Virus record (IMG/VR): IMGVR_UViG_3300025789_000026
Coordinates: 43,002 to 107,001 of that record
Direction: 5' to 3' (one strand)
Length of the DNA: 64,000 bases
Source of the DNA: a virus
The position numbers and the translations under genes are program-made. This document shows, in pieces, positions 8,986 through 60,023 of this stretch; positions within the stretch are counted from its first letter, which is position 1; each line of letters begins with the position of its first letter. Under the pieces are notes generated by a model. The model ran no database searches, was not told the origin of the DNA, and was given only the letters and a program-made list of their open reading frames with translations.

Positions 8986-10542
8986 ATGAAAATAAAGTTA
9001 AATTGTATAAACTGTAATAATGATTTTGAAACGGAGTTTAAATATAGAAGTAAGAAGTTTTGTGGTAGGAAGTGTTTTTTTGAATATTCTAAAGAGCATA
9101 AAACTATTGGTAGAAAAATAGATGAAGAAATAAGGGAAAAAAGAATTTGTTTAATTTGTAATAAAGAATTTGAGTGTAAGAAAAAACAAGAAAATAAAAT
9201 GTGTTCTAATGAGTGTAGAAAAGAATGGAACTCTATAGAAGAAAATAAGTCTAATAGAATAAAATTAAGTAAAGATACATTATTAATAAATCATGGTGTT
9301 GATTCAATGTTTAAGAAAATTGAATATAAAGCTAACCGTAATCAAATTTTCTTAGATAAAATAGGTGTTATAAATCCGATGAAAGATAAGTTAATTGTAA
9401 ATAAACTACAAAAAACTCTGAATGAAAAACAAATTAAAAACTTACTACCAAAACTTAATGAACATAATATAATATTACTTGATGAATACAGTGTAAATAA
9501 AAGTGGTTCAACATCAATGTCTTATAATTTTAAATGTAAAAAGTGTGAAAATATATTTTCAAGTACCGTGCTTGGTTCTGGTAAGATACCAATTTGTAGA
9601 AAATGTACACCGTTAGAAAAAAATTCAAAAATTGAAGAAGTAATAAAGGATTTTTTAAATTTAAAAAATATTAAACACTTAGATAACAGTAGAAAAATAC
9701 TTAACGGTAAAGAGATTGATATATTCTTGAGCGATTTTAATTTAGGTATAGAGGTAGACGGCAATTATTTTCATAGTGAAATAAGTGGTGAAAAAGATAG
9801 TAAATATCATTTAAGTAAAACAAAATTAGCACATGAAAAAAATATAAAATTAATACACATATTTGAAGACGAAATACTATATAAAAAAGACATAGTATTA
9901 TCTAGATTGAGTAATCAGTTAAATTTAAATAATATAAGATACTTTGCAAGAAATTGTGAAATTAGAATTGTAAGTAAAAAAGAATCTACTTTATTTTTAG
10001 ATAATAATCATATTCAAGGAAATTCTATTGATTTAATAAGATTAGGGTTATATTATAATAATATATTAATTTCATTAATGACATTTGGTAAAGAGCGAAA
10101 AGCTTTAGGTAATATAGAAACTGAGGATACTTATGAATTGGTTAGATTTTGTAATTTAATAAATTCTAATGTTGTTGGTGGGTTTTCTAAACTTTTAAAA
10201 CATTTTATTGTAACATATAAACCTAAAAAAATTGTAACTTACGCTGATATTAGATGGTCTGGATTAAATGAATTAGATACTGTTTATATAAAAAATGGTT
10301 TTAAGTATATTAAAAATACATCACCAAATTATTGGTACTTAAAAGTTGGACAATATAATCATAGATATCATAGATATAATTTTAGAAAAGATATTCTAGT
10401 TAAAGAAGGTTTTGATAAAAACATGTCTGAATTTGAGATTATGAAATTAAAGGAATTTGATAGAATATGGGACTGTGGAAATATGAAATTTGAATGGACT
10501 AGAAATTCAATTTGTAATCATGAACTCAGGTGCATCATTTGA
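8986..10542 (+). CDS. Free-standing homing endonuclease with Zn clusters and a Vsr-like PD-(D/E)xK nuclease domain
   Basis: A 518-residue protein. The N-terminus has paired-cysteine zinc clusters (C7, C10, C26, C30; then LICNKEFEC...CSNEC; later KCKKCE...ICRKC). The nuclease core lies near residues 243-263: EIDIFL followed by GIEVDGNYFH, then a Lys-rich helix and IHIFEDE, as in Vsr-type endonucleases of phage mobile genes. The C-terminal part (FLDNNHIQG, VRFCNL, YADIRWSG, and RIWDCGNMKFEW near the end) matches a module often attached to such phage endonucleases. It sits between the sheath gene and a displaced second copy of the sheath 3' end. Its own last dozen codons are read from that copy in another frame, so the ancestral C-terminus was altered on insertion. 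Confidence 0.8.
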   Translation: MKIKLNCINCNNDFETEFKYRSKKFCGRKCFFEYSKEHKTIGRKIDEEIREKRICLICNKEFECKKKQENKMCSNECRKEWNSIEENKSNRIKLSKDTLLINHGVDSMFKKIEYKANRNQIFLDKIGVINPMKDKLIVNKLQKTLNEKQIKNLLPKLNEHNIILLDEYSVNKSGSTSMSYNFKCKKCENIFSSTVLGSGKIPICRKCTPLEKNSKIEEVIKDFLNLKNIKHLDNSRKILNGKEIDIFLSDFNLGIEVDGNYFHSEISGEKDSKYHLSKTKLAHEKNIKLIHIFEDEILYKKDIVLSRLSNQLNLNNIRYFARNCEIRIVSKKESTLFLDNNHIQGNSIDLIRLGLYYNNILISLMTFGKERKALGNIETEDTYELVRFCNLINSNVVGGFSKLLKHFIVTYKPKKIVTYADIRWSGLNELDTVYIKNGFKYIKNTSPNYWYLKVGQYNHRYHRYNFRKDILVKEGFDKNMSEFEIMKLKEFDRIWDCGNMKFEWTRNSICNHELRCII

Positions 10543-14970: not shown

Positions 14971-15861
14971 ATGGTAATTTGTAAAGAATGTAATAGAGAG
15001 TTTGAAACGTTAGATGCTTTAAGAAGACATCGTGTTCAAAAACATAAAGTATCCGCTGAACAAACATATATTGATTATGTATTAGATGGAATTGAACCTA
15101 AATGTAAATGTGGTTGTAATGAAAAACCTAAATTTTTAGGTGTTGAAGTTGGTTTTAGGGATTATAAATTAGGTCATGCTTCTAGGGTAAATAACAATTG
15201 GGGACATAATCCTAATGCTATAAAAAAATCACATGAAACTCAAAAAAAAATGCACGAGAATGGTGAGCTAACAATTTGGAATAAAGGGTTAACAATTGAA
15301 GACGATAGAGTTAGGGATAATATTACTAAAGTTATGTCAAACCCAGAACGTGGTAACAATATCTCAAAAAAATTAACTGGTGTTGCTAAGAGTCAGGAAC
15401 ATATTAAAAAAATAAAGGAACATTCAAAATTAAGATGGGAAAATCCAGAAGAACGTGAAAAACAATCTAATAGAAGAATGGAGTATATAATTAAAAATGG
15501 TTTTACACCAACTTCAAAATTAGAAGAAACATTTGAAAAAATATTAATTGATAATTTTAATTTTAAACTTGATAAGGATTATTACTATCAATTTTATGTT
15601 AGAAAAATTAAAGCAATTTTTGATTTTAAAATTTCAGGTAAAAAAATATTAATTGAGGTTGATGGTGATTATTGGCATTGTAACCCAAATTCAAGATATG
15701 CTGAACCAACTTCAGATGCACAAATAGGTAATTTAATTCAAGACAAAATTAAATCTGAATGGTGTATTGAGAATGGTTTTAAATTACTTAGATTTTGGGA
15801 ATCAGATATTAAAAATGATTTAGAATCGGTTATTAAAAAATTAAAAGAAGAATTACTTTAA
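14971..15861 (+). CDS. Homing endonuclease with a C2H2 finger and a Vsr/DUF559-like nuclease domain
   Basis: A 296-residue protein. A classical C2H2 finger opens the protein (C4, C7, H20, H25), followed by a cysteine cluster KCKCGCNEKPKF. A NUMOD3-like helical DNA-binding segment follows (KKLTGVAKSQEHIKKIKEH, then a Trp-Glu-Asn-Pro-Glu-rich stretch). The C-terminal nuclease core (FDFKI near 217, then IEVDGDYWHCN near 228-238, and LLRFWESDI) is of the PD-(D/E)xK type with the WH motif of Vsr-like nucleases. The gene lies just after the tube gene and its duplicated 3' end and has its own promoter and terminator. These features suggest a mobile gene targeting the tube gene end. Confidence 0.82.
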   Translation: MVICKECNREFETLDALRRHRVQKHKVSAEQTYIDYVLDGIEPKCKCGCNEKPKFLGVEVGFRDYKLGHASRVNNNWGHNPNAIKKSHETQKKMHENGELTIWNKGLTIEDDRVRDNITKVMSNPERGNNISKKLTGVAKSQEHIKKIKEHSKLRWENPEEREKQSNRRMEYIIKNGFTPTSKLEETFEKILIDNFNFKLDKDYYYQFYVRKIKAIFDFKISGKKILIEVDGDYWHCNPNSRYAEPTSDAQIGNLIQDKIKSEWCIENGFKLLRFWESDIKNDLESVIKKLKEELL

Positions 15862-40029: not shown

Positions 40030-42801
40030 ATGGGTATAAGATGGTTAAATAAAAATAGTGAGTCCTTTTTAAAAAAGGATTATCTATTATTGGGTCAAAC
40101 GGTTGAGGAAAGAATTAAAATTATTGCGGATAACGCTGAAAGAATACTTACTGAGACTAAGAAGAATAATGATTACGATTTTACTGGTTTTTCAAATAAA
40201 TTAGTTGATTACGTGTCTAAGGGTTGGATTAGTTTCTCAACACCAATATGGACAAATTTTGGTACAGAAAGAGGGTTACCAATTAGTTGTTTCAATAGTC
40301 ATTTTTCTGATAGTGTATCTTCAATATTATACACAAATGCTGAAATTGGTATGATGACCAAATTAGGTGGTGGTACCAGTGGCTACTTTGGTAGTATTAG
40401 AGGTAGAGGTTCATTAATAAAGGATAATGGGTTCAGTAACGGTACTTATCCGTTTCTAGCATACACACAGTCCACAACCTCTGTAATAAGTCAAGGAAGC
40501 ACTAGGAGAGGCTATTTTGCTGGGTATATAGATATCTATCACCAAGACATAGAAGAGTGGCTAAATATAAGAAAAGAAGGTGATGCAATACAACATGTTA
40601 CTTGGGGTGTTTGTGTTCCTTCTAATTGGATAGAAGAAATGAAAAATGGTGATGCTAAGAAAAGAGAATTATGGGCTAGAGTGGTAACAAAGAGATTTGA
40701 AACTGGTTTACCATATATATTCTTTACAGATAATGCAAATTATGGAGAAAGTGTTCCAGAGATTTATAAAGGAAGAATTAAATCTAGTAATTTGTGTGTT
40801 ATTGGTTCCGATATGGCTGTTACATCCAATGGTTTAGTTAAAGTAAGTGAACTTTATGATTTGGGTGAAAATCTTGTTTTATTTGACAACGAAAAAACAG
40901 TAAACGCATCACCAATGAGACTTGTTGAGAAAGATGTTGATGTCTATAAAGTAACATTAGAAAATGGTATGTCTCACACAATTACTGATTATCATAAGTT
41001 AAAAATATATGATAATGAATCATATACTATGAAAGAGTGTAAAGACTTAGTTATTGGTGATAAAGTATGTGTTCAAACTAATAAGGGTTTATTTGGTAAA
41101 ATTGAAATGGAAGATGAGGCTTACTTATTAGGTTTATATCAATCTGATGGTACACAATATGAAGATACAATAATGATTGATTTATGGGAAAATGACTTTG
41201 ATTTAATTGACGATATAGAAAATAAATTTAACAATATTCACTATAAATATAATTGTGATACAATTACTGTTAAAAATCAATTTGGTACGTTTGGTACTAA
41301 AAAATCTCCACCAGCTAAATTTAGTGACTGCCAAGTTGCTCAATCATTGGTTAAAAAGAAAAGGTTATCATCTAAAACTTTAGATAAAGCTTTAAATTTT
41401 AAAAAAGGTTTTGTACCTGAATGGATTTTTAAGGGTAGTGAAAAAACACAATGGGCTTATATTAAGGGTTTATTGGAAGCTGATGGTACTGTTTTCTTAG
41501 GCGATAAAAATAATATTCAGTTATCGTATAGTGATATAAATAAAGAGTTTCTTGAACAATTACAGTTAGTGTTTAATAATTTAGGTTTAAATTCAAAAAT
41601 AAAAATTCTTAGATACGCTGGTGAAACTAATTTACCTGATGGTAAGGGTGGGCACAAGATGTATCTAACAAAAGATTGTTGGAGGCTATATGTATCAAAC
41701 ATGCCAGATTGTTTAGAAGTAGAAAGAAATACAGGGTTCCTGTCTAGAAAAGGTGTTATATTGGAAAATAGGGATTATAGAGATAATACAAAAAAATCTT
41801 TTAAAATAGAATCAATTGAACATGTTGGTAAAGAAGATGTTTATTGTACAACTGTTAACAGCAATGAACATTTATGGGTTTGTAATGGTTTTATAACATC
41901 AAACTGTACAGAAATCATGGAACCATCTGACGAGAACGAATCATTTGTTTGTGATTTATCATCAATAAATGATTTATATTATGATGAGTGGAAAGATACA
42001 GATTGTGTAGAAGTGGTAACATTTTTATTGGATGCTGTAACAACTGAATTTATTGAGAAAGCTTCTAAGTATGAATTTATGGAAAGGTCTATTAGATTTG
42101 CCACAAGACACAGAGCTTTAGGTATAGGTAGACTTGGTTATCATTCTTTGTTAAAAAGCAAAATGATAGCGTTTGAATCACTAGCAGCTAGAAATATAAA
42201 CATTCAAATTCAAAAACACATTCAGCAAGAGTCAATAAAAGCTAGTGAAAAATTAGCACATATATTTGGTGAATGTGAAGAAACTAAAGGCTTAGGAAGA
42301 AGAAATGCGGTACTACAAGCTATCGCCCCAACAACTTCTAGCGCATTTATTATGCAAGTATCTCAAAGCATTGAACCAGATATGTCTAACTTGATGGTAA
42401 AGGATTTAGCTAAGGGTAAATTCACTATTAAAGATAAGTATTTAACTGCTTTATTAGAGAGTAAAGGACAGAATACAGATGATGTATGGGATGATATCTT
42501 AAAGCATGGTGGTAGTGTATTACACTTGGATATACTAACAGATGATGAAAAATCTGTATTTAAAACTTCAAGAGAAATTTCACAAGAAGAAATAATAGTT
42601 CAAGCTGGCCATAGACAAAAATACATTGACCAAGGTCAATCTTTAAATTTGTTTATTACAGCAGATACTAAAGCTAAGGATGTTAATAAGTTATTATTAA
42701 TGGCTAACGATTTAGGCCTTAAATCACTTTATTACCAACACAATGTTTCAGCAGCATCTGAATTTGCTAAAAAATTCCAGAATTGTATGAGTTGCGAGTA
42801 A
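40030..42801 (+). CDS. nrdA: Ribonucleotide reductase class I, large subunit, interrupted by an intein
   Basis: A 923-residue precursor. Residues 1-255 and 626-923 are NrdA: LPISCFNSHFSD, GGGTSGYFGSIRGRG, STRRGYFAGYIDIYH, and the radical loop SNLC|TEIMEP. The partner cysteine lies in ESFVCDLSS, then APTTSSAFIMQVSQSIEP, and the C-terminal redox pair CMSCE. Removal of the 370-residue intein restores a 553-residue enzyme. This is shorter than cellular NrdA because no ATP-cone domain is seen at the N-terminus, so dATP feedback inhibition is probably absent. The junction cysteine corresponds to the catalytic thiyl cysteine (C439 in E. coli), so only the spliced protein can be active. Confidence 0.93.
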   Translation: MGIRWLNKNSESFLKKDYLLLGQTVEERIKIIADNAERILTETKKNNDYDFTGFSNKLVDYVSKGWISFSTPIWTNFGTERGLPISCFNSHFSDSVSSILYTNAEIGMMTKLGGGTSGYFGSIRGRGSLIKDNGFSNGTYPFLAYTQSTTSVISQGSTRRGYFAGYIDIYHQDIEEWLNIRKEGDAIQHVTWGVCVPSNWIEEMKNGDAKKRELWARVVTKRFETGLPYIFFTDNANYGESVPEIYKGRIKSSNLCVIGSDMAVTSNGLVKVSELYDLGENLVLFDNEKTVNASPMRLVEKDVDVYKVTLENGMSHTITDYHKLKIYDNESYTMKECKDLVIGDKVCVQTNKGLFGKIEMEDEAYLLGLYQSDGTQYEDTIMIDLWENDFDLIDDIENKFNNIHYKYNCDTITVKNQFGTFGTKKSPPAKFSDCQVAQSLVKKKRLSSKTLDKALNFKKGFVPEWIFKGSEKTQWAYIKGLLEADGTVFLGDKNNIQLSYSDINKEFLEQLQLVFNNLGLNSKIKILRYAGETNLPDGKGGHKMYLTKDCWRLYVSNMPDCLEVERNTGFLSRKGVILENRDYRDNTKKSFKIESIEHVGKEDVYCTTVNSNEHLWVCNGFITSNCTEIMEPSDENESFVCDLSSINDLYYDEWKDTDCVEVVTFLLDAVTTEFIEKASKYEFMERSIRFATRHRALGIGRLGYHSLLKSKMIAFESLAARNINIQIQKHIQQESIKASEKLAHIFGECEETKGLGRRNAVLQAIAPTTSSAFIMQVSQSIEPDMSNLMVKDLAKGKFTIKDKYLTALLESKGQNTDDVWDDILKHGGSVLHLDILTDDEKSVFKTSREISQEEIIVQAGHRQKYIDQGQSLNLFITADTKAKDVNKLLLMANDLGLKSLYYQHNVSAASEFAKKFQNCMSCE
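40795..41904 (+). mobile_element. Intein with LAGLIDADG homing endonuclease in nrdA
   Basis: It encodes 370 residues between SSNL and CTEI. Cys1 begins CVIGSDMAVTSNG (block A). Block B is GMSHTITDYHKL. Two LAGLIDADG motifs, YLLGLYQSDG near precursor residue 365 and YIKGLLEADG near 477, mark the endonuclease. Block F is VYCTTVNSNEHLWVCNG. The last residues are FITSN followed by extein Cys; the penultimate position holds Ser rather than the usual His. Codon use and AT content resemble the flanks, so it is not a very recent arrival. Confidence 0.93.
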
Positions 42802-42914: not shown

Positions 42915-43301
42915 ATGCCAGTTAAAAAATACATAAATATTGATTTTCCATTTAAAGATAGTCCAGATGGTTTTTTATTAAATTTAAATTCTGATACACA
43001 ACGTGCCATAAAAGCTGATTTAATGCACTTATTATTGACTAGAAAGGGTCAAAGACTTTATAATCCAAATTTTGGTACGGATTTATTAAAGTTTATTTTT
43101 GAACCAAATGATGGTATTTCACTTAATGAAATTAGAGAAGAAATAGCTGCAAGTATAAAAAAATACTTACCAAATTTACAAATAAATAGTTTAACCGTAA
43201 ACCCAGACCCAAACACTGAATATCTAGCTGTAGTAAATTTAAGTTATACGATTACAGAAGGTGTCTTTGCGATAGATGATTCAATTACTATAAATATATA
43301 A
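42915..43301 (+). CDS. gp25: Baseplate wedge protein gp25 family
   Basis: A 128-residue protein of normal length. The family marks are DTQRAIKADLMHLLLTRKGQRLYNPNFGTDLLKFIFEP, a following helix with EIREEIAASIKKYLP, and a final pair of strands. gp25 is part of the wedge core and nucleates sheath assembly in T4. It starts a new transcription block after the nrdA terminator and precedes gp6, the normal wedge order. A 104-base spacer with a second ATATTTAT box separates the two genes. Confidence 0.92.
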   Translation: MPVKKYINIDFPFKDSPDGFLLNLNSDTQRAIKADLMHLLLTRKGQRLYNPNFGTDLLKFIFEPNDGISLNEIREEIAASIKKYLPNLQINSLTVNPDPNTEYLAVVNLSYTITEGVFAIDDSITINI

Positions 43302-43405: not shown

Positions 43406-45235
43406 ATGGCACAAGCAAATATTTCACAAAGAGTTAATTATACTAGTAGGAATTTCTCAGATATAAGAACTGATTTAGTTAATATGGTTAAACAATACTA
43501 CCCAAGTATTTTTAATGATTTTAACGATGCTTCAATCGGTATGATGCTTTTAGAACTTAATGCTGCCGTAGGAGACATGTTATCTTTTAATACGGATAGA
43601 ATGTTTCAAGAAGCACAAATTGACTATGCACAACAAAAAAGTTCAGTACTTTCTATGGCTAGGACATTTGGTTTAAAAATTCCAAATACACGTCCATCAG
43701 CAACAATTGTAGATTTTACCGTAACGTTACCAGTATTCGGAACAACTTTTGACGTTTCATACGCACCAATTATTCAAGCTGGTGCACAAGTTAATGGTGC
43801 TGGTAAAACATTTGAGACTCAGTATGATATTGATTTCTCATCACCATTTAATCTTAGTGGTGTACCTAATAGAACAATTATCCCAAATTATGATTCTAAT
43901 AATAATCTAATAAATTATTCCGTAACAAAAAGAGAAATTGTTATTAATGGTTACACAAAAATATATAGACAAGTTATTACACCAAGCAATGTCGTTCCAT
44001 TTTTTGAAGTTTTTTTACCAGATAATAATGTTTTATCTGTAACCTCAGTTATTACTCTTAATGGTACTAATTACACTTCAGACCCGACACCACAACAATT
44101 TCTAAATGAAAATAATACTTGGTATGAGGTTGATGCGTTAGCTGAAGATACTCTTTTTGTTCCAGACTATAATAAAATTAGTGATAACCCATCAATTATA
44201 CCTGGTAAATACATTACAACAAATAAAAAATTTATTACTGAATATACAGATTTAGGATTTATGAAAATGATATTTGGTGGTGGTAATCAAGACACAAGCT
44301 CATTATATAGTTTTGGTATTAGTGCTGACATCATCAACCAAATTGGTGACTTTATAAATAATTTATCTTTAGGTACAACACTTAGTCCAAATACCACATT
44401 ATTTGTTAAATATAGAGTTGGTGGTGGTGCTGATACAAATATTGGTCAAGGTATAATAAATAACGTTGGTTTAATTAATATGACAGTCAATGGTGCTAAT
44501 CAAACGACCAATAATGCTGTTAAATCATCATTAAAAGTAAACAATCCTATTCCAGCTTTAGGTGGTCGTGATACCCCATCTGTTGAAGAAATAAGGAACT
44601 TAGTTAGATATAATTTTTCTGCCCAAAATAGAGCTGTAACCATTAAAGACTATCAATCAAGAATAGCACTTATGAATGGTCAATTTGGTGCACCATTTAG
44701 AACTGGTGTTGTTGAATTACAAAATAAGATTCAAATTTATATCTTAGGTCTTAATGCTAACGGTAACCTTGATAATTCATCAACTAGTACACTTTTAAAG
44801 AATATAGCGACATATCTTTCTGACTATAGAATGATGAATGATTATATTGAAGTAACCAATGCTAGGATTATTAACCTGAAATTTCAAGTTAATATTTATA
44901 TTGATAAAACATATCCACAATCACAAATAATTGCAAATGTAGTTAATGATATTAAAACTTATATGGATATTAATAATTTTCAAATGGGTGAAAATATTTA
45001 TTTATCTAATTTAATACAAACTATAAATAGTGTTGCTGGTGTTTTAAATGTTATTAATTTAAATGTTTATAATTTAGTTGGTGGGGATTATTCATCAAAT
45101 CAAATTTCACAACCACTTTTAGATGCAACAACTGGTCAAATTGATATAAGTCAACAATACACTCTTTTTGGTGAACCTGACTGTATGTATGAAATTAAAT
45201 ATCCTAATAAGGATATAACTGTAAGTGTTTCATAA
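43406..45235 (+). CDS. gp6: Baseplate wedge protein gp6 family (baseplate J-like)
   Basis: A 609-residue protein, similar in length to T4 gp6 (660). The N-terminal NYTSRNFSDIRTDLVNMVKQYYPSIFNDF and DASIGMMLLELNAAVGDMLSFNTDRMFQEA segments are typical of gp6. The central GGRDTPSVEEIRNLVRYNFSAQNRAVTIKDYQSR segment is the baseplate-J signature, followed by two small C-terminal domains. gp6 dimers form the inner iris of the baseplate and change shape during contraction. The gene leads a long run of closely spaced or overlapping tail genes. Confidence 0.9.
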   Translation: MAQANISQRVNYTSRNFSDIRTDLVNMVKQYYPSIFNDFNDASIGMMLLELNAAVGDMLSFNTDRMFQEAQIDYAQQKSSVLSMARTFGLKIPNTRPSATIVDFTVTLPVFGTTFDVSYAPIIQAGAQVNGAGKTFETQYDIDFSSPFNLSGVPNRTIIPNYDSNNNLINYSVTKREIVINGYTKIYRQVITPSNVVPFFEVFLPDNNVLSVTSVITLNGTNYTSDPTPQQFLNENNTWYEVDALAEDTLFVPDYNKISDNPSIIPGKYITTNKKFITEYTDLGFMKMIFGGGNQDTSSLYSFGISADIINQIGDFINNLSLGTTLSPNTTLFVKYRVGGGADTNIGQGIINNVGLINMTVNGANQTTNNAVKSSLKVNNPIPALGGRDTPSVEEIRNLVRYNFSAQNRAVTIKDYQSRIALMNGQFGAPFRTGVVELQNKIQIYILGLNANGNLDNSSTSTLLKNIATYLSDYRMMNDYIEVTNARIINLKFQVNIYIDKTYPQSQIIANVVNDIKTYMDINNFQMGENIYLSNLIQTINSVAGVLNVINLNVYNLVGGDYSSNQISQPLLDATTGQIDISQQYTLFGEPDCMYEIKYPNKDITVSVS

Positions 45236-45283: not shown

Positions 45284-45595
45284 ATGGGTTGTAATTGTAA
45301 AAATACTGGTACTATAGAATTACCAGAAAATGAAAAATTATCATTAACGTCAATAATTCTTGATTATACAATTAGATTTATTTTATATTTAATTTTATTA
45401 CCATTTATTATACCAATAACAATTATTGTTTTATTTTATACAATAGTTATAAATAAGGGTAATTTAAACGGTTCTGGTATGATGAAAATTGTTGGTAAGT
45501 TATTAAAAAATGCTTATAAAGAAGAGGAAGAAGATGAATTTCTTGATGAAGAATTTAATGATGAAGATTACGAATTAGATGAAATAATAAATTAA
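45284..45595 (+). CDS. Small membrane protein with acidic C-terminus, 103 aa
   Basis: A 103-residue protein. The N-terminus is MGCNCKNTG. It is followed by about 38 uninterrupted hydrophobic residues (from SIILDYTIRFILYLILL to IVLFYTIVI), enough for one long or two short membrane helices, a short basic loop and a strongly acidic tail (EEEEDEFLDEEFNDEDYELDE). It is not a recognisable holin or spanin. It lies inside the tail operon, two bases before a 1223-residue tail protein that itself has a long hydrophobic segment, so a role in membrane contact or tail assembly is possible. Confidence 0.65.
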   Translation: MGCNCKNTGTIELPENEKLSLTSIILDYTIRFILYLILLPFIIPITIIVLFYTIVINKGNLNGSGMMKIVGKLLKNAYKEEEEDEFLDEEFNDEDYELDEIIN

Positions 45596-45596
45596 A

Positions 45597-48500
45597 ATGT
45601 CAGATACAATAAGAATTAAAACAACACCAAATGGTTCAGATAAGTATTTAAATGTTAAAATTGAGCAAGATTTTGATTTTATTCAAGTACTTTCTTTAAA
45701 AATAACACAAGATAATGTTTATCAAAATTTTTGTGCCGATTATGGTGTTGTTGTTGGTAGAGTTGTAATTAATTCTGGATTTGGTGTTCCAAATGTTAAG
45801 GTTTCTATTTTTATACCCTTAGATGACACAGATAGTACAGACCCAATAATTAGTGGGTTATACCCATATACAACGGTTAATGATAAAAATAGTGATGGTA
45901 TTAGGTATAATTTATTGCCTAGTATTTCAGATAGTCAAGACCCTTGTTATACAACAGTAGGTACCTTCCCAACTAAAAGAGAAATCTTAGATAACGATGA
46001 TATGCTTTATGTTTATAAAAAGTATTATCAATTTACAAGCATAACAAATTATGCTGGTGATTTTATGATTTTTGGTGTTCCATTAGGTAACCATACCGTA
46101 CATGTCGATATGGATATATCAAACATTGGAATTGCATCACAAAGACCTTATGACCTTATTAGTCAAGGAGCACCACCATCAATGTTTTATAGTCCAACTA
46201 AATTTAAAGCAAACACAAATTTAAATTCATTACCACAAATAAAAACAGCTAATGCTTCAGTTAATGTTCAACCATTTTGGGGTGACCAAAATAATTGTCA
46301 AATTGGTATAAATCGTTTAGATTTTGACATGAATTATAACATAACCCCAGCAGCTATCTTTATGGGTGGTATCTTTGGTGACCATGAAAAAAACAGTGTT
46401 GATAAACGTTGTATACCTAGAAAAAAAATGGGTATAATGTGCCAACAAGAGACTGGGCCTGGGATGATTGAAATGATTAGAAAAACACAAGAAAATCAAA
46501 TTGAATCATTCGATGTTAATGGTGGACAAGTTATTGATAATAATGGTGCTTGGGCGTATCAAATACCGATGAATTTAGATTATGTTGTTACAGCTGAAGA
46601 TGGTAGTCTTATTCCATCATCTGACCCAAATATTGGTATCCCAACAAGAAGTAGAGTTAGGTTTAGAATAAGTATGAATGAAAGTGGTGATTTAGGTCGT
46701 TTAAGGACTAGAGCTAATTACTTAGTACCTAATAATCCAGCTAGTTATAATGAGTTAGATTTAAATTTTGACCAAACAACTAAGGATTCTAGCTTTACTG
46801 ATTTATATTGGAATAAAATATACACAGTAAAGAATTTTATACCTAAATACTATAGAAATAATGAAAATAGATTTTTAGGTATAAAAGATACTGATAAATG
46901 TGAATCAAATAATCTTTTCCCATATAATAACTATTCAACATATAAAATTGGTTTTAATTTTATATTGTTTAGTATAATATGTTTAATTTCTAAATATGTA
47001 ACATTTTTAGTTGCAACAGTTAACTCTAGCCTTGGTATTTTTTTAGTTATTCAAAATATTTTTAATACTATTTTATGCCCTCATTTTTTAGGTATTACGC
47101 CTTGGTGTTTAACTAATATAGATATAGTTCCTGTTATAAAATTAAAATGTGATATTGATGATAATTCTAGTGGATACGCCCCAACATTATTTGACTATGT
47201 AAATGGTAAAGCCAACGATTGGTCAAATTGTATTGCTGTTGGTATGGCAACTAATTTTGATGTTTATCAAATGGATTTTTATAATGATTGGATTAATGGT
47301 GCATTGTATAGTTACTTATTAAAATATAAACATAAAAATAACGGTAGAAATAAGTATTGTGATGCTAATTGCGTTAACGATAGTAATCCATGTGTTGATG
47401 GTACTATTTCATATTCAATACCAAATGGAACTTCAGAACCAATTAATAGTTCAGAAATAATAAATCAAGGATTAATTATTGCTGATACTAATAATACTTT
47501 ATATTATAGTCCTATTACAACAACTGGTAGAAAACTATTTGCTACTGATATGACAAATTTAGGTGCAATATTTAATTGTGATTGGCAATCATTTCCAAAA
47601 ATAATTAATTATTTATCACCAACTAGTTATAAAATTCCACCAATTATTGTTGATAGTAATTTTGATTATGTAAACATTGTAAAAACTTATACGAGTGGTA
47701 TGTTTAGCACAGATTCTGGTACTGGTTTATTTTTTAAAGTTGATTGTGGTGGTGTTTCCCCAATAGATGATTTTTCCCAAATTAATATGAAGAGGATTTC
47801 AGAATTTGGTGTTGATATACCAGAATCAACAGCAACAACAATTACACAACTTTCCATAAATCAAATATATGACTTAACAGAACCACCACAAGCTAGTATA
47901 CATAAGTATATTAGGGATTCATACACTCTTTTAAATATTAACGGTTCTGGTATAAGCACATTCCCAACAAATTTAATATCTAGTTTATCAGCACCAAGTG
48001 ATGGTACTTCATTTGGCGTTGACGCAAATCCATATATAAACGGTGGTTTATATTCCAAATATGCAAATTATAATAATTTGCTTGGTGGTTCATATTATAT
48101 GTATTTCGGTCTTGTTAAGGGTAAAACAGCTTATGATAAGCTTAAAAGTAATTTCTTAACAGCTTGTCCACCAAATATAAATGATAATTTTGATATTAGA
48201 GTTGATATTTATCCGTCATCCACACCTACAGCATCTGACGGTGGGTTCAATTTTAGTTTTGTTGGTGGTACCCCACCATTCAGTACAATTATAGTTGGTC
48301 CTAATGTTCCAAACAATACATATATAAGTACAACACAAAGTCAAACACAAAGTGTTTCTGGTTTAATAGATGGTCAATATGAAATAGTTGCAACAGATAG
48401 TCTTGGAACCGTAGTAACTAGAAAAGTTATTATTTCTGGCCCACAAAGACTTACGATGTATTATAGTGTGTTTAATAACCCATCAACTAGTACTTCAAAT

Positions 48501-49268
48501 GATGGTATTGTATTAATCGATTATTTAAGTGGTGGTACCGAACCATATACTATTTCTTTAACAAATACAAAAACTAATCAATCATTTACACCAACAACAA
48601 ATTTACAAGGTGGTAAATTTACAAATTTAAATGTTGGTACATATGTATTAAAAGTTGTTGATAAGAGTTCACCAAAACAAAGTGAAACGGTTAATTTTGA
48701 ATTAACCGCACCACCACCATTAACTGTTATATTATCTAAAACAGATAGTAGTGCAACTAGTTGTGTACCTAGTGGTTCAATTGTACCAAACATTAACGGT
48801 GGTAAGGCACCTTATATACTTAGTGCTACAAGTACCGATGGTTATTTGAGTGGCGGTAGTTCCGATGTAATATATTCATTTAATGATTTATATGCTGGGG
48901 ATTATACGGTTACAGTTAAAGACTCCGTTGGTACGATAGTTACAGAAAATATAACAATTAATGGTTCTAAACAAATGAAATTTATCGGTGATGTACAAAC
49001 AAAAACAATTGGTGGTAATAAAACTAATGCACAAATAACAGTAATAAAATATATTGCCGAAAATAATTTAGTAACTGGTGGGGTACCTAATTATATTTTA
49101 TCAGCTAAAGGTGAAACGAGAACACCAACTTATACGTGGAATATATCACCATATGCCTTAAATAACCTTAACGGTATTTTTGGTTGGGAAAATATACCAA
49201 CTGATGGTTCGTTTACGTTAACAGCAACTGATACAAATGGTTGTACCGTAACAAAAACATTTTATTAA
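45597..49268 (+). CDS. Giant tail protein with SprB-like repeats and a hydrophobic hairpin
   Basis: A 1223-residue protein. An N-terminal region (SDKYLNVKIEQDFDFIQVLSLKI; VVGRVVINSGFGVPNVKVSIFIP) resembles carboxypeptidase-regulatory-like beta domains and is followed by a large unknown region. Residues about 452-495 are very hydrophobic (FNFILFSIICLISKYVTFLVA, then GIFLVIQNIFNTIL) and are followed by Cys-containing PHFLGITPWCLTN and KLKCDID. From about residue 870 there are four SprB-like units with GGTPPFS or GGTEPYT, LxxGxYxLxVxD and a final DTNGCTVTKTF. SprB repeats occur in adhesins of gliding flavobacteria. The protein is probably a baseplate- or fibre-associated component. Confidence 0.65.
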   Translation: MSDTIRIKTTPNGSDKYLNVKIEQDFDFIQVLSLKITQDNVYQNFCADYGVVVGRVVINSGFGVPNVKVSIFIPLDDTDSTDPIISGLYPYTTVNDKNSDGIRYNLLPSISDSQDPCYTTVGTFPTKREILDNDDMLYVYKKYYQFTSITNYAGDFMIFGVPLGNHTVHVDMDISNIGIASQRPYDLISQGAPPSMFYSPTKFKANTNLNSLPQIKTANASVNVQPFWGDQNNCQIGINRLDFDMNYNITPAAIFMGGIFGDHEKNSVDKRCIPRKKMGIMCQQETGPGMIEMIRKTQENQIESFDVNGGQVIDNNGAWAYQIPMNLDYVVTAEDGSLIPSSDPNIGIPTRSRVRFRISMNESGDLGRLRTRANYLVPNNPASYNELDLNFDQTTKDSSFTDLYWNKIYTVKNFIPKYYRNNENRFLGIKDTDKCESNNLFPYNNYSTYKIGFNFILFSIICLISKYVTFLVATVNSSLGIFLVIQNIFNTILCPHFLGITPWCLTNIDIVPVIKLKCDIDDNSSGYAPTLFDYVNGKANDWSNCIAVGMATNFDVYQMDFYNDWINGALYSYLLKYKHKNNGRNKYCDANCVNDSNPCVDGTISYSIPNGTSEPINSSEIINQGLIIADTNNTLYYSPITTTGRKLFATDMTNLGAIFNCDWQSFPKIINYLSPTSYKIPPIIVDSNFDYVNIVKTYTSGMFSTDSGTGLFFKVDCGGVSPIDDFSQINMKRISEFGVDIPESTATTITQLSINQIYDLTEPPQASIHKYIRDSYTLLNINGSGISTFPTNLISSLSAPSDGTSFGVDANPYINGGLYSKYANYNNLLGGSYYMYFGLVKGKTAYDKLKSNFLTACPPNINDNFDIRVDIYPSSTPTASDGGFNFSFVGGTPPFSTIIVGPNVPNNTYISTTQSQTQSVSGLIDGQYEIVATDSLGTVVTRKVIISGPQRLTMYYSVFNNPSTSTSNDGIVLIDYLSGGTEPYTISLTNTKTNQSFTPTTNLQGGKFTNLNVGTYVLKVVDKSSPKQSETVNFELTAPPPLTVILSKTDSSATSCVPSGSIVPNINGGKAPYILSATSTDGYLSGGSSDVIYSFNDLYAGDYTVTVKDSVGTIVTENITINGSKQMKFIGDVQTKTIGGNKTNAQITVIKYIAENNLVTGGVPNYILSAKGETRTPTYTWNISPYALNNLNGIFGWENIPTDGSFTLTATDTNGCTVTKTFY

Positions 49269-53481: not shown

Positions 53482-55536
53482 ATGGCTAGTAATAGAATAA
53501 AAGTTTTAGGTTATGCTCAAAAAGTAGTATATGAGGACCAAGTCCAATATACACCATACACCCCAGATTTAGTTGGTTTTCAATTAGCTAGTAATGGTGG
53601 TACCCCTCTATTTACGATGGGTAACTTTTATGTTACAACAAACCTTGAGCCAAAAGTTAATAAAGTATTTGTAACCAATAATCAATCTAATTATAAGTCA
53701 TTAAATGATATTAATTCTACTGGACAAGATATTCAAGTATTATTAGATAATAATAATATTGTTGTTTTAAATCTTGATAAAACAAATTTATCTAATTATG
53801 CATTATTTAATTCACTTTCTGAATATGTTAGGGTTGCATTAGAAAATATTATCACAAATTGGCCAGCTGCTTTATATGTTAAACCATTATATGCGTTACC
53901 ACCAAATTATTCAACTCAAAGTGGTGTTACATTTCAAAATTATTCATTCAATAATCTTACAAGTGTTTCCACTTTTGCCATTAATACAAATGTAATAGTT
54001 AATAATTTTCAAATAAACTATTTAGCTAGTGGTTCATTAGAAAAAACTTTTAACTCAACTAATTCATTAAGAAATATTGCGTTAAATTATTCACAATATT
54101 CAATTTTACTTAATGGGGTAGAGTACCCTATTTTAGGTTTTACTGGTTCCACACAAATATCTAATGATTATATATATCTTTCAGTTAGTGGTGATGTATT
54201 TTCTGGTGCTGTTAGTGGATATAATACGTATCACATTAAACCAAATACTACACAAGAAAATTTATTTTATAATTCATTACCAAATTTTGAATATTATTTA
54301 TTAAATAGATTATCAAATCCTTTATTTACAGCAACTTTTAGTTTTTCAGTTAAAACCGATTCTGGTGGTATAGCTTATACAACAAATAGTGTTACTTGGC
54401 CAACTAGTGATGGGTACAATATTGATTTTGATTCAGATGCTTATACAGATTATGCAACCAATTTATTAAATATTTCAACAAGTTATGATGATACAACTGG
54501 TAATTTAATGGTTAGATTCCTTGTAACAGAATCAATAACTGAATTTGATACATCAAGTGTTTATTTAGGTGATTTAGACCAAGATTCTACCGACCAAAAA
54601 ATGAATAAGACACTAACCATCTATGGTGTTGAATACGATGAAATAAATAATTACATACAAGGTATTAGATTTGTTAATACTGTATCATATGATAAAAATA
54701 ATAATACACCAGATATCTATTTAAAAAGTATTGCGAATATTTTAGGTTGGGACTTAGTTTCATCTATTTTAGAGAATGACTTATTAAGAAGTTATGTAAC
54801 CCCTAACAAATCAACATATGCTGGGCATGGTGTTGGTTTAACGTTACAAGAAGCTGATACTGAACTATGGAGAAGAATTATATTAAATTCACCTTGGATA
54901 TGGAAATCAAAGGGTACTAGAAAAGCTATTGAATTTTTATTTAAGTTTATAGGTACACCTTCTGGTCTAATCACATTTAATGAATACGTTTATGCCGCTG
55001 AAGAATCAATTGATGTTGATTTATTTAAAAGTGTTTTAGCTTTAAATAAATTAAGTACTGATATATCAAATTATCCTATAGATTTAAACGGAAACCCTAA
55101 ACCATTAATTAACACATCATCAATTTACTTTCAAAGTAATGGGTTATGGTATAGGGAAACTGGGGGTGCCAATTCAATGTTAGATATAACAACAGGTAAC
55201 AATCCACATATTGGACCATATGACGGTGGTTCAACATATTTAAATCAATTTAAAACACTTATACCTAATTTTAGTGCTGTAACCGTAAGTTCACAAACTG
55301 TTACAACAGTCACTCTTAATATGTTTACAAATTATAATTCTGGTACGTTTGACTTTTATAGTGGTGATACTTATATTAAGGTAATTGATTCAAAAAATAT
55401 TGATATAACAGCATCTGGTACTACTATATCAATAATTGATGACCCATATAATCGTTTAGAATTTAACTGTAACGAGTGTCCAATACCTAATGATACAAAA
55501 TCATTAAGTATTCTAATAAAAGGTAATAAAAGGTAA
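53482..55536 (+). CDS. Probable baseplate-to-fibre tail protein, 684 aa
   Basis: A 684-residue protein. The most telling segment lies near residues 455-495: LTLQEADTELWRRIILNSPWIWKSKGTRKAIEFLFKFIGTPSGL. Such helical segments (Trp-x-Ser-Lys-Gly-Thr-Arg-x-Ala-Ile-x-x-hydrophobic) occur in baseplate proteins that attach fibres to the wedge, like P2 gpI-type proteins. The rest is beta-rich (VSVSGDVFSGAVSGYNTY). It ends eight bases before the next large gene. A linking role is proposed. Confidence 0.6.
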   Translation: MASNRIKVLGYAQKVVYEDQVQYTPYTPDLVGFQLASNGGTPLFTMGNFYVTTNLEPKVNKVFVTNNQSNYKSLNDINSTGQDIQVLLDNNNIVVLNLDKTNLSNYALFNSLSEYVRVALENIITNWPAALYVKPLYALPPNYSTQSGVTFQNYSFNNLTSVSTFAINTNVIVNNFQINYLASGSLEKTFNSTNSLRNIALNYSQYSILLNGVEYPILGFTGSTQISNDYIYLSVSGDVFSGAVSGYNTYHIKPNTTQENLFYNSLPNFEYYLLNRLSNPLFTATFSFSVKTDSGGIAYTTNSVTWPTSDGYNIDFDSDAYTDYATNLLNISTSYDDTTGNLMVRFLVTESITEFDTSSVYLGDLDQDSTDQKMNKTLTIYGVEYDEINNYIQGIRFVNTVSYDKNNNTPDIYLKSIANILGWDLVSSILENDLLRSYVTPNKSTYAGHGVGLTLQEADTELWRRIILNSPWIWKSKGTRKAIEFLFKFIGTPSGLITFNEYVYAAEESIDVDLFKSVLALNKLSTDISNYPIDLNGNPKPLINTSSIYFQSNGLWYRETGGANSMLDITTGNNPHIGPYDGGSTYLNQFKTLIPNFSAVTVSSQTVTTVTLNMFTNYNSGTFDFYSGDTYIKVIDSKNIDITASGTTISIIDDPYNRLEFNCNECPIPNDTKSLSILIKGNKR

Positions 55537-55544
55537 TAATTAAA

Positions 55545-58500
55545 ATGATAAATTTATATAATAACACAAACTTAAATTATAACCCACCATTTAATATCAT
55601 TTTAAATCCAAATGGTAATAGTGGTGAAATGTTTATTGTTACACCAGATGAAACATGTACATTAAATATTTCATTTGATTATCTTTTCAAATTTGATTGT
55701 GCTGATTTACTTAGTTATACCAGAACTGGCAATAATTTATTAAGTTTGTTTGAATCAATAGGTGCATCAGTATCACTTAATTTATTAACAACAAATGATA
55801 AAAAAGTTACATCAACATCAGTATATAATGAAACATTTTTTAAACCAATTGGTGTTGGAAATATGTTTAATTACCTTAATAATTTAAATGGTGCATCTTC
55901 TGGATTTTTCTTATGTGGTGAAATTGGTAATGACCCAACGTGCCATCCGTTAACTATTGATAATGCTAGTTCAACAACTTGTTCATTAGTTTTACCATCC
56001 ATATATACAAGTTTACAAAATGAATATGGTTCTAAAATAACAAAAAGTTTTAACCCCTTAATTATTTCTGGTTTATCATCTACTTGGTCTAAATATAGTA
56101 AAGATATAACAGATTCAGCCATAATTAATAAAATTATTAATAAAAATATTAATATAAGTGTTGAAGTTAGTGGTACCGTTATTAATACATATGTTTTATT
56201 GGATAATATAGTAATTAAAAGAAATTGTACACATATTAGTGAAAATGATATTTTTGTATCTAAATCTCCAGGTTTTAATCTTAAAAAAGTTGTTGATAAT
56301 AAAAAATCTTGGGTTTTAAATAAAAATGCTGAGGAAAGAGCGTTCAATGTTCCAAATATTACCAATTTATTAACAAAAAGAGAAACTGATTATACAATAA
56401 ATAATGGTTCACTTGTTCTTAATTCAAAAGAAATTGATTTAAATCTTGATATTTCTAAAGCTGTTGAAACAGATGTTTGGACATATATTGTTAATAATCC
56501 ATGTATTTTAACTGGGTATAATGTTGACACAAAAATTGTCACTAAACAAGTCAGCACACCAATTTATTCATCTGGAACTATTATATGTAGTGCACAATCG
56601 GTTAGTGTTTGTATTAGTGATGGTTGTGGTGATAAACCAATTAATATTAATGCGTTAACAACACAACCATTAAGCTTGGTGAAAACGGTTGAAAATTTTG
56701 AAGCATATGTTGAATCAGAATTGGTTGACGGTAAAAATAGAAAAATAATTTCATCATATCCAACACTTAGATTACTCTATGATAGGTATATAAATAGTTT
56801 AGATTATTGCGGTACAAAATCAAATAATTTTGATTATTTTAAAATGATTAATTTCACTAATCTTATTGGTAATTATTGGGTTGACTTAATTGAACAAGTA
56901 ATGCCAGCAACAACCATTTGGAATTCAACAAAGGTTTATGGTAATACAATATTTGATTCACAAAAATTTCAATATAAACCAAATACATTATTTTTTGGTA
57001 CCGCTAGTACTTATAATCAAGTATTAAGTCCATGTACAGGTGTAACTTGTGGTGTTGATGTTAAAACAAGTGTAATCTTAAGTGGGTCAAGTAATATTTC
57101 AGAATTCTTAAGTCCAAAAACAAATAATGATTTTAGTAATGCTTATTTAATACAATATAATAGTGGTTCAGAATTTATTGGTTCTGTAACTAAAACAGTT
57201 AATTTCACATGTAATATTGAATTATCAACAAACACTACAAATGCTTTACCTAATAATACAGGTGGTATTTGTAATACAATCCTAAGTAGTCCAAATGGTG
57301 CTGTTAACTATTCATTAAGTGCTAAATCATCAAATTCAATCATACAAAGTGGTCAGGGTGTAATGGTTCTTCCAATATTTAATAATTTATCAGCTGATAC
57401 TTACACATTAACTGTTACGGATATTTATGGTTGTCACCAAAACTCAACATTTGTTATTTCATATAACCCTTGTGTATTAACATTTACATCGGTTAACACT
57501 AATTCATTTAAGGGTATGAATAATGGTTTCGTTACTATTTCAAATATTAACGATACTGGATTAGTAACTGGTTATACATTAACAAGTGGTGCGACAACAA
57601 TAAGTGCTGGTACATTTAATAACCAAAACAATAACCAACAATTATCTTTAACAATTGCTAATTTATCAGCTGGAACTTATTCACTAACACTAACTGATAA
57701 TTATGGTTGTAACGTAACTAGTGGTGTAACAATTAATGAAAATCCTTGTATTTTAAGTACTACAGCATTATCTGTACCATTTACACAATTTGATGATGGT
57801 ACTGGAACTGGTTCCATAACTCTTAATGTTACTAATGCTTACGGTATACCTAGTTCAATACCAGCTGGTAACCCTCAACCAACATCAATCCAATCACCTA
57901 ATTTAGGTGTATCATATACTGTAAGTGGTATAACAACAAATAAAACTGGGACAATTAATGATGTTAATAATCATACCGAAGGTAATTTAAGTGCTGGTGC
58001 TTATAATGTTAAATTTATCGATAATTCAGCTATAGGTTGTTATTCTAGTACGACACTATCCATACCAAAAATAACATATAGTGGTTATGCTGGTTATTGT
58101 GAAATTGCAACCGCTGACTTTAAACTTAGGGAGTTTATAACTGGGTTTAGTTCACCAGTTTTATCATATTGGTTTCCAACAACTAAAAATGGTGGTAAAA
58201 ATAGAATTTATGTTTTATTTAACGTCAATTCTAATTCAACTAATACTATTACTTCTAATATTTATTATCTTGACAATTCAAATGATTTTATTAAATCAAC
58301 AACACCATACACACCATATTTTACTAGTTCAGATTTTAAACCAATTGGTACATATAATGGGAATACGGTTAATAATTTTTATAAAAACGCTATATTTGAT
58401 GAAAATAATAACAATATATATTTTTGTGGCGAAAATAGCATAAATCCAAATAGTGGTGCTAATAGCATAAATCCAAATAATGGTGGTTTGGATGTTTATG

Positions 58501-60023
58501 ATATTGATACAGATACATGGGTTGGTACAATACCTTATGGTTCAAATGATACTAATGATAGACAAGTTTTATATTCATACTCAACAAATGTAAATAATAA
58601 AACAATTAAATTCATTGTTGTAAATAATTCAAAAATAGACCGTGGTGGTGGTGCTTATGGTGGTGGCTTTACCGTTTACCAAGCTAATACAATAAAACCT
58701 TATTTACAGAATCCAACAAAAAATAGTTTAGTATCATTTGATATTGTCTTAGATGCAGGTAATAATATTACCTATAAGGATTATTTTTATAATGGTTCAC
58801 TTTATCTTGGTTTGTTCATAAAAGTTGGTGACTATTACTGGAGTTGTCCTGGTGGTAGTGTTAATAACGCTGGTATACTTATTTTCGCTTTAGAGGCTAG
58901 TGATAGTGCTAATAATATTAAACCAGTTAACCCAGCTGACCCAGCACTTCTCCCAAATCAATCAAAATTTATAAATGGGAAGTATTGGGGTTCTATTTTT
59001 TATGATGAATCATACCATAAAGTTTATTTTTCTGATTTTGGCTCTCAAACAATATCAGTTTATGATGTTACAAATGGAAATAATATTGGTGGTGGTGGTA
59101 AACTTTTGAAAGAGATAGACATTAGTAAATATAATTCTGGTTATAATTCCGATTTCTCTAATCTTAATTATGTTCCAATTACTTATGTAACTTTAGACCC
59201 AATTGATAATAATACTTTATATTGTACAGTTCAAATGAATGACCCATCAGATGAAGAAACTCCAAGGTGGAGTAATACATATGTAATTGATAGAGATAAA
59301 TCAGTTTTTAAAAGACTTATCAAAGGTTTTTATGCTTTAAATACTTCAGTTGTAGATGATGGTTATGATACTAAGAGTCTTATGTCTGTTAATAATGGTG
59401 AGGGTACATTAAGTATTTATAATAATAGATATAGTGGTTATACAACTGGTAATTATATTTATACATCAATGATGAGGTATAAAAATGGTACACCAGATAC
59501 TAGTCTTTCTGATAAGGGTATTCTTAATAAAATTAATCAAATAGATGCGTATGGTACAACAGCAACAACTGTAAATACAAATATTTTTGAGGTTACTAAT
59601 CAATATAAAAATAAAATTAGTGCACCAAAAGTCATAAGTGGTGCTTGTCTTACTACGTCTTTTGCTAGTGCAAGTACTAATACGATAGCTAATACTACTA
59701 CTCAACAAAGTGTAAATTTCCAAATGCAATTTGACCCAACTGTTTACAATAATAGTAAAATATCGAATTTTGTTGTATCACTATATGATGCTTCTAACGG
59801 ACCAATCGGTTCCCCATCAACTGGTGTAACATACAGTTATTCAACAGTAAATTATAATGGTGGATATATTGATGATATTCTAACTTCAAGTACACAATAT
59901 TTTACATCGAATACAGTTGCTTATAAAATACATTTGGATTATTATAGTGGAAGTACTATTACACCTAGTAATAAAATAACTGGTTATACATATAATGGTC
60001 CGACAAATACCAAAAATCCATAA
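55545..60023 (+). CDS. Giant fibre-like tail protein with SprB-like repeats and probable beta-propeller
   Basis: A 1492-residue protein. The N-terminal 550 residues are beta-rich with cysteines (CSAQSVSVCISDGCGDKP; DYCGTKSNNFDYFKM). About residues 556-846 comprise SprB-like repeats (PIFNNLSADTYTLTVTDIYGCH; IANLSAGTYSLTLTDNYGC; NLSAGAYNVKFIDNSAIGCYS). From about 850 to 1360 successive sheets of the type NIYFCGENS, LDVYDIDTDTWVG, KVYFSDFGSQTISVYDV and NTLYCTVQMND resemble blades of a beta-propeller, a fold often used for glycan or protein binding. A short duplication (NSINPN) lies near residue 968. It is probably a receptor-binding or adhesin-like tail protein. Confidence 0.68.
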   Translation: MINLYNNTNLNYNPPFNIILNPNGNSGEMFIVTPDETCTLNISFDYLFKFDCADLLSYTRTGNNLLSLFESIGASVSLNLLTTNDKKVTSTSVYNETFFKPIGVGNMFNYLNNLNGASSGFFLCGEIGNDPTCHPLTIDNASSTTCSLVLPSIYTSLQNEYGSKITKSFNPLIISGLSSTWSKYSKDITDSAIINKIINKNINISVEVSGTVINTYVLLDNIVIKRNCTHISENDIFVSKSPGFNLKKVVDNKKSWVLNKNAEERAFNVPNITNLLTKRETDYTINNGSLVLNSKEIDLNLDISKAVETDVWTYIVNNPCILTGYNVDTKIVTKQVSTPIYSSGTIICSAQSVSVCISDGCGDKPININALTTQPLSLVKTVENFEAYVESELVDGKNRKIISSYPTLRLLYDRYINSLDYCGTKSNNFDYFKMINFTNLIGNYWVDLIEQVMPATTIWNSTKVYGNTIFDSQKFQYKPNTLFFGTASTYNQVLSPCTGVTCGVDVKTSVILSGSSNISEFLSPKTNNDFSNAYLIQYNSGSEFIGSVTKTVNFTCNIELSTNTTNALPNNTGGICNTILSSPNGAVNYSLSAKSSNSIIQSGQGVMVLPIFNNLSADTYTLTVTDIYGCHQNSTFVISYNPCVLTFTSVNTNSFKGMNNGFVTISNINDTGLVTGYTLTSGATTISAGTFNNQNNNQQLSLTIANLSAGTYSLTLTDNYGCNVTSGVTINENPCILSTTALSVPFTQFDDGTGTGSITLNVTNAYGIPSSIPAGNPQPTSIQSPNLGVSYTVSGITTNKTGTINDVNNHTEGNLSAGAYNVKFIDNSAIGCYSSTTLSIPKITYSGYAGYCEIATADFKLREFITGFSSPVLSYWFPTTKNGGKNRIYVLFNVNSNSTNTITSNIYYLDNSNDFIKSTTPYTPYFTSSDFKPIGTYNGNTVNNFYKNAIFDENNNNIYFCGENSINPNSGANSINPNNGGLDVYDIDTDTWVGTIPYGSNDTNDRQVLYSYSTNVNNKTIKFIVVNNSKIDRGGGAYGGGFTVYQANTIKPYLQNPTKNSLVSFDIVLDAGNNITYKDYFYNGSLYLGLFIKVGDYYWSCPGGSVNNAGILIFALEASDSANNIKPVNPADPALLPNQSKFINGKYWGSIFYDESYHKVYFSDFGSQTISVYDVTNGNNIGGGGKLLKEIDISKYNSGYNSDFSNLNYVPITYVTLDPIDNNTLYCTVQMNDPSDEETPRWSNTYVIDRDKSVFKRLIKGFYALNTSVVDDGYDTKSLMSVNNGEGTLSIYNNRYSGYTTGNYIYTSMMRYKNGTPDTSLSDKGILNKINQIDAYGTTATTVNTNIFEVTNQYKNKISAPKVISGACLTTSFASASTNTIANTTTQQSVNFQMQFDPTVYNNSKISNFVVSLYDASNGPIGSPSTGVTYSYSTVNYNGGYIDDILTSSTQYFTSNTVAYKIHLDYYSGSTITPSNKITGYTYNGPTNTKNP
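58438..58485 (+). repeat. Short tandem duplication in the propeller region
   Basis: AATAGCATAAATCCAAATA occurs twice in succession with a shift of 30 bases, encoding NSINPNSGA and NSINPNNGG. Confidence 0.8.

Follow-up and report, generated by a model that had tools for sequence, protein, structure and literature searches.

Four SprB-type immunoglobulin-like domains at the end of a baseplate-cluster protein form an inherited, fast-changing array in a large group of uncultivated phages

We analysed a 64,000-nucleotide stretch of viral DNA, hereafter the window, which corresponds to bases 43002–107001 of the 107,001-base IMG/VR record IMGVR_UViG_3300025789_000026. Its open reading frame (ORF) 45597–49268, on the + strand, codes for a protein of 1223 amino acids (aa) in a baseplate gene cluster, and the last third of this protein (48234–49262) is made of four tandem immunoglobulin (Ig)-like domains of the SprB-repeat superfamily in its wider sense. 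Within a large group of uncultivated phages the array is inherited and changes fast. It is found across a single clade of these phages and is absent in some lineages, its units are kin to those of Bacteroidota surface arrays and are inherited by position, and it evolves faster than the core of the protein. We lean towards seeing in it an accessory Ig-like adhesion arm, inherited among phages, on a baseplate-cluster protein of a contractile-tailed, T4-like group whose hosts are probably Bacteroidota. Coverage of Bacteroidota phages by cultured isolates is poor.

A previous reading of the window from its sequence alone had reported repeat units with particular motifs at the end of the protein. 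These motifs are present in frame: GGTPPFS (48264–48284), GGTEPYT (48531–48551), GTYVLKVVD in unit 2 and DTNGC (49230–49244). Units were called with a hidden Markov model (HMM) iterated on the tails of 49 relatives, from which the window was left out; it finds the window protein at E 1.9e-35, with four units (Table 1). The AlphaFold2 (AF2) model of the tail, calculated from a 50-row alignment, has a mean predicted local distance difference test score (pLDDT) of 80.5 and contains three confident tandem Ig-type beta sandwiches, mostly above 90, while about 70 residues in the region of unit 4 fall below 60. Foldseek matches of this model in the PDB are tandem Ig-type or fibronectin rods and adhesins, including NCAM, SiiE, GhpA of Aureispira and chains of the T5 tail tip; template modelling (TM) scores are low, about 0.2–0.4, as expected where several hinged domains are compared at once.

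The same reading had likened the units to SprB repeats and made the likeness depend on a match to the SprB profile PF13573. The window protein gives no row with this profile at E up to 1 (the Pfam gathering cut-off is 28 bits), and the whole record gives no match either, in a search where the control genomes were also silent, yet 20 of 24 other records match. Such a requirement is too strict, because relatives with the same core match the profile and cellular units find the window protein; the likeness itself is well founded. The profile is 37 positions long, and the units in the window have diverged. It does pass the Pfam cut-off in the corresponding C-terminal part of the relatives L005 (28.2 bits), L006 (36.7) and L010 (35.3), as well as in L030 (47.1), L061 (53.3), L064 (64.8), L043 (87.0) and L070 (57.1); it stays below the cut-off in L003, L007 and L012, and the tailless L023 has no SprB row. 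At E up to 1e-3 it matches 37 of 50 tails (best 7.5e-28), a set that includes the unmatched window and seven tails of another type.

With an HMM built only from cellular units of Bacteroidota, the window protein is recovered at E 7.7e-8; its tail scores 50.6 bits, whereas none of 500 shuffles exceeds 13.1. This HMM touches all four places in the window, two of them clearly (1.9e-4 and 3e-6) and two weakly (0.01 and 0.024). The 21 Bacteroidota loci from which it was made were chosen by likeness to a phage unit of L064 and are thus no neutral sample; all 21 confirmed cellular loci of that unit belong to Bacteroidota according to their record titles. Independently of this HMM, ORFs matching the window tail are present in 53 of 395 genomes of Bacteroidota, the phylum of G017 (Cecembia rubra, the genome of L106), the best at 7.1e-14. 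The matched ORFs range from 279 to more than 6000 aa, and most exceed 600 aa. The C-terminal sorting domain of the type IX secretion system gives no row for the window protein and weak rows for two of the 50 tails (best 0.00071).

Kinship with cellular arrays raises the question of origin. That the phage had taken its repeats from its host was a further proposal of the sequence-only reading, and as a recent event it is probably wrong: the array extends across a phage clade, the window units pair by position with those of other phages, and the twenty best cellular matches are 27–38% identical to the window tail, compared with 48% for the nearest other phage tail. For the window array we therefore rejected recent capture. 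An old transfer of units, in either direction, is possible. SprB-type domains acquired from the host could let the phage attach to those surfaces that the host adhesin binds, or imitate that adhesin, for example in contacts with the gliding machinery. We consider this improbable: the sequence kinship with Bacteroidota arrays would fit it, and 16 of 155 phage units are indeed closest to a cellular unit (from a cellular set picked by likeness to one phage unit), but each of the four window units has its nearest relative among phage units, the identity to cellular matches is low, and similar units occur in enterobacterial phages. Passages in two papers discuss the gliding machinery as a likely, and SprB and RemA as possible, phage receptors (PMC7345892, PMC13288928), which would also suit host-derived mimicry.

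Among the phages, the relationship of units follows their position. For the 155 phage units compared (L009 and units shorter than 46 aa were dropped), the nearest unit stood at the same position in another phage in 131 cases and at another position in eight, the rest being the cellular pairings given above; the 312 cellular units included came from the loci picked by likeness to one phage unit. The window units follow this same-position pattern in all four cases. When partners with at least 65% core identity were excluded and cellular units not included, the nearest unit was at the same position for 107, at another position for 44 and in the own protein for four. As units mostly pair by position, the array is inherited within groups of these phages. 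Recent tandem duplication was rejected, as none of the 155 units is closest to a unit of its own protein, and only one is when cellular units are set aside.

The tail changes faster than the core. In 10 near pairs the ratio of nonsynonymous to synonymous substitution rates (dN/dS) is highest in the tail in all 10 (0.19–0.52), compared with 0.11–0.38 in the middle of the core and 0.03–0.16 in core residues 1–440; the pairs were hand-picked, some share a member, and one tail is truncated. The window and L003 share 79.6% identity in the core and 61.5, 41.9, 39.3 and 50.8% in the four units. A side observation concerns the pair L003/L009, in which dS is 0.39 from core residue 441 to the landmark at the core end and 0.07 and 0.11 on the flanks, which suggests that this block of the core has recombined. 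A search for the reverse transcriptase of a diversity-generating retroelement (PF00078) found none in any of the four records searched.

Relatives of the core are numerous in IMG/VR (at least 600 pattern matches and at least 593 confirmed stretches); the 80 loci retained are the best matches to the window, so that the sample leans towards it. Complete core ORFs stop 3–9 aa past a landmark with the consensus YFGxxPGKTAxDKxxxxYF, carry another tail, or carry units. Fourteen are tailless (13 without L047, a duplicate of L045), and seven have tails of the other type after removal of the duplicate L073; with the window excluded, 42 of 49 tails hold 1–5 units. A core tree was calculated from the first 450 aa of 63 rows (43 with units, 13 tailless and seven with other tails), leaving out truncated ORFs without the landmark, the broken L056 and five duplicates (L001, L036, L047, L065, L073). 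The 43 unit-bearing rows and two tailless ones (L045, L068) form one clade with support 98/90. The distribution of the array on this tree requires a minimum of 3 changes, against a mean of 17.3 in shuffles, none of 500 being as low. Gain and loss of the tail are not separable because the root is a midpoint. Two further loci may be described here: in the tailless L047 a frame opens directly after the stop and looks, by eye, like the gene that comes next to the tail in the window, and in L056:1010-5668 the gene is broken, the core ending early and later frames carrying units.

These data also bear on a plainer function, in which the units would be structural spacers or cement: they would lend the baseplate stiffness or spacing, or keep adjacent tail parts in place, and would not bind the host. 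We regard this as the less probable explanation, although one to be taken seriously. It agrees with the conserved position of the units and the absence of their multiplication within a protein, with the matches of the tail profile to phage decoration and neck-whisker proteins, and with the similar units of enterobacterial phage whiskers described below. However, the array is missing in L045/L047 and L068 inside the clade, and in every pair compared the tail has changed more rapidly than the core. The existence of one protein in versions with and without the tail offers a natural comparison for the function of an Ig-like arm.

The core to which the array is attached was modelled by AF2 with a pLDDT of 83 and a predicted TM score of 0.84. 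Its N-terminal domain (aa ~45–249) is a transthyretin/CarboxypepD_reg-like beta sandwich, with VIA-align Z up to 6.9, a level at which chance matches are possible; weak CarboxypepD_reg matches in relatives fall in the same place and agree with the fold match. The VIA list for the core consists mainly of beta-sandwich matches and barely covers the part beyond residue 656. The window core also contains a long hydrophobic helix, at aa ~453–496 on one delimitation and at aa 455–498 (46959–47090) on another. The core would be placed in the baseplate on account of its gene neighbours, gp25 and gp6. At the thresholds used, searches with it by family and by fold gave no known baseplate protein, and among solved baseplate proteins none was conspicuous. 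The designation as a phage tail protein, given to it earlier, suits the neighbours gp25 and gp6/J.

A search of 50,697 phage records gave no core match for the window protein or for its distant relative L094; with L064 one record matched, its best place lying in the tail, with five further places. Identification of the host through a provirus was unsuccessful, as 130 pattern matches to the core in GTDB genome contigs yielded no confirmed relative and a search of the 395 Bacteroidota genomes, run without a positive control, gave no core match.

Several observations weigh against an inherited adhesion arm on a baseplate protein of Bacteroidota phages. No PHROG, PDB-sequence or PDB-fold match ties the core to the virion at the thresholds used. 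The Pfam rows of the window tail are sub-cutoff CarboxypepD_reg (0.0013) and SdrD_B (1.1e-4, with the tail alone), and not SprB. With partners below 55% core identity only, of which few remain, the positional signal is lost (36 units pair with the same position, 65 with another, 53 with their own protein and one with none), and position is not shown to be a deep ancestral trait. Every dN/dS is below 1, so that the faster change of the tail is not proven positive selection and may reflect relaxed constraint. As to the host, the gp6 neighbour shares 27.4% identity with a Microcystis phage and 27.6% with the wedge protein from Flavobacterium phage immuto, which makes the two equally close, and the immuto baseplate region has neither the core nor the units. 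Finally, a strongly hydrophobic stretch (19 residues above 1.6 on the Kyte-Doolittle scale) is present in 67 of the 68 core rows, counting duplicates, and begins at residues 455–543 in the 16 rows printed; it is odd for a baseplate part and equally suits a membrane protein.

This stretch could mean that the protein is made in the infected cell and anchored in its membrane, where the Ig array would act at the cell envelope and not as a part of the virion. The small upstream gene with a hydrophobic helix, seen in 50 of 62 loci, would be in keeping with such a role. We judge it unlikely, and slightly more so than host-derived mimicry: the gene is located between gp25/gp6 and ORF 53482–55536, the latter with a short match to a baseplate-region protein of cultured phages, and no N-terminal signal sequence is visible by eye.

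If the array is an adhesion arm, as we favour, the four Ig-like domains fused to the end of a conserved baseplate-cluster protein would project outward from the baseplate as a rod facing the host. The arms would then make contact with the envelope of the host, or with glycans on it, either ahead of tail attachment or in its course. A far more speculative variant, which we hold to be very improbable, is that they engage SprB-type adhesins of the host or their ligands by like-to-like Ig contacts, so that the virion docks on the gliding machinery and is carried along the cell. Were this true, the domain family common to phage and host would serve for docking to a track, and not as a generic spacer.

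Table 1. Positions in the window of the core, the array and its units, and of related or neighbouring features
Feature	Position	Strand	Basis
Core, through landmark YFGLVKGKTAYDKLKSNFL (aa 836–854)	45597..48158	+	Core relatives, AF2 model
C-terminal tail, 369 aa, SprB-type tandem array	48159..49265	+	Profiles, model, cellular matches
Unit 1	48234..48434	+	Tail-HMM independent E-value (iE) 7.4e-15; beta sandwich in model
Unit 2	48495..48695	+	Tail-HMM iE 1.2e-12; beta sandwich in model
Unit 3	48771..48959	+	Tail-HMM iE 5.3e-13; cellular HMM iE 3e-6; beta sandwich in model
Unit 4, divergent, DTNGC near end	49071..49262	+	Tail-HMM iE 2e-6; low model confidence
Two further SprB-like units in separate downstream gene, ORF 55545–60023	57285..57458, 57519..57734	+	iE 2.5e-6, 2.7e-5
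gp25-like baseplate wedge, upstream neighbour	42915..43301	+	PF04965 6.6e-13, phrog_261 1.7e-21
gp6/Baseplate_J-like wedge, upstream neighbour	43406..45235	+	phrog_219 3.8e-16
Small MGCNCK protein with hydrophobic helix, directly upstream of core	45284..45595	+	Sequence

The second pair of SprB-like units in the window lies downstream of the region to which the sequence-only reading had referred. Its gene is found by the cellular-unit HMM at E 7.2e-5, and the pair is weaker than the main array. The records of L009 and L012 likewise hold additional ORFs with units at a distance from the core. An ORF with a Cys-rich start similar to that of the MGCNCK protein precedes the core in 50 of 62 relatives by a manual count of rows (a scripted count by hydrophobicity gives 51 and includes a different ORF in L094); it is missing in the tailless outgroup and in L068.

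Other genes of the window code for a contractile sheath, tube, baseplate hub, tape measure, single-strand binding protein, UvsX-like recombinase and exonuclease, a set that we read as that of a T4-like myovirus. The sheath ORF 2485–8865 is very large (2126 aa), and its sheath-domain matches begin no earlier than about residue 1839. ORF 40030–42801 (923 aa) resembles the large subunit of ribonucleotide reductase and seems, by eye, to contain an intein-like insertion, and HNH/homing endonuclease genes lie between tail genes at 8986–10542 and 14971–15861. ORF 53482–55536 has a short match (1.6e-6) to the protein in the same place of Microcystis phage Mel-JY01 and a weak one (0.012) to immuto. That the core is the counterpart of immuto gp109, the large protein downstream of gp6, was not supported, the core profile and hhalign giving nothing. 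In immuto, Mel-JY01 and LR756508 the baseplate regions contain no units below E 0.1.

Phage units share with the SprB repeat of PF13573 the layout G.I...GG..PYTY...G...L..GTYTITVTD..G, and differ from the SprB arrays of Bacteroidota in number. The phage tails hold 1–5 units with positional identity, whereas each of eight Bacteroidota genomes, all of which match the profile, has from 28 to at least 150 matches. Twelve of 16 phage records have 1–10 matches each, with none in the record of the window or in those of L001, L009 and L047. Proteins of uncultured Caudovirales (A0A6J5LD72, A0A6J5LDA4 and A0A6J5MUM3) annotated as 'SprB repeat' are among the structure matches in BFVD, with A0A6J5LD72 at the top, so that SprB-labelled phage proteins are already present in public databases. 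Among the papers listed from the open-licence PMC literature we found none on SprB repeats in phage proteins by title or start of abstract, and the single paper containing both 'PF13573' and 'phage', PMC8078820, mentions the profile only in a row of a table.

A cellular SprB array matches 39 of the 50,697 phage records. Among the 30 matches listed are one 642-kb metagenomic phage and one hypothetical protein of a 61-kb Citrobacter phage; the remainder are enterobacterial phages, the matched proteins being mostly annotated as fibritin neck whiskers, at about 28–33% identity. For fibritin of the RB43 type (records among H35–H62) the match reaches 32.7% identity at E ~7e-8. The tail profile in turn matches the phage decoration and whisker proteins 5lxk, 8zvi and 9occ at 1.4e-6 to 4.1e-5 (we take 5lxk and 8zvi to be phage proteins), and Hoc-like phrog_2973 matches the window at 0.0018 and L064 at 2.4e-7. 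The whisker and decoration matches imply that the units are no private mark of Bacteroidota phages; they weaken the case for mimicry and speak for a general phage-exterior domain. The occurrence of SprB-type units both in cell-surface arrays and in phage proteins means that the label 'SprB repeat' need not indicate gliding or recent theft.

Compared with known Ig-like proteins of the phage exterior, the present domains differ in forming the C-terminus of a baseplate-cluster protein. A parallel in arrangement is offered by crAss-like phages, in which a Bacteroidetes-associated domain, BACON, also stands in tandem on tail proteins, with a suggested role in host binding (PMC6949934). BACON belongs to another family, and the crAssphage array is reported to have arisen by sequential duplications, which have no counterpart in the units described here.

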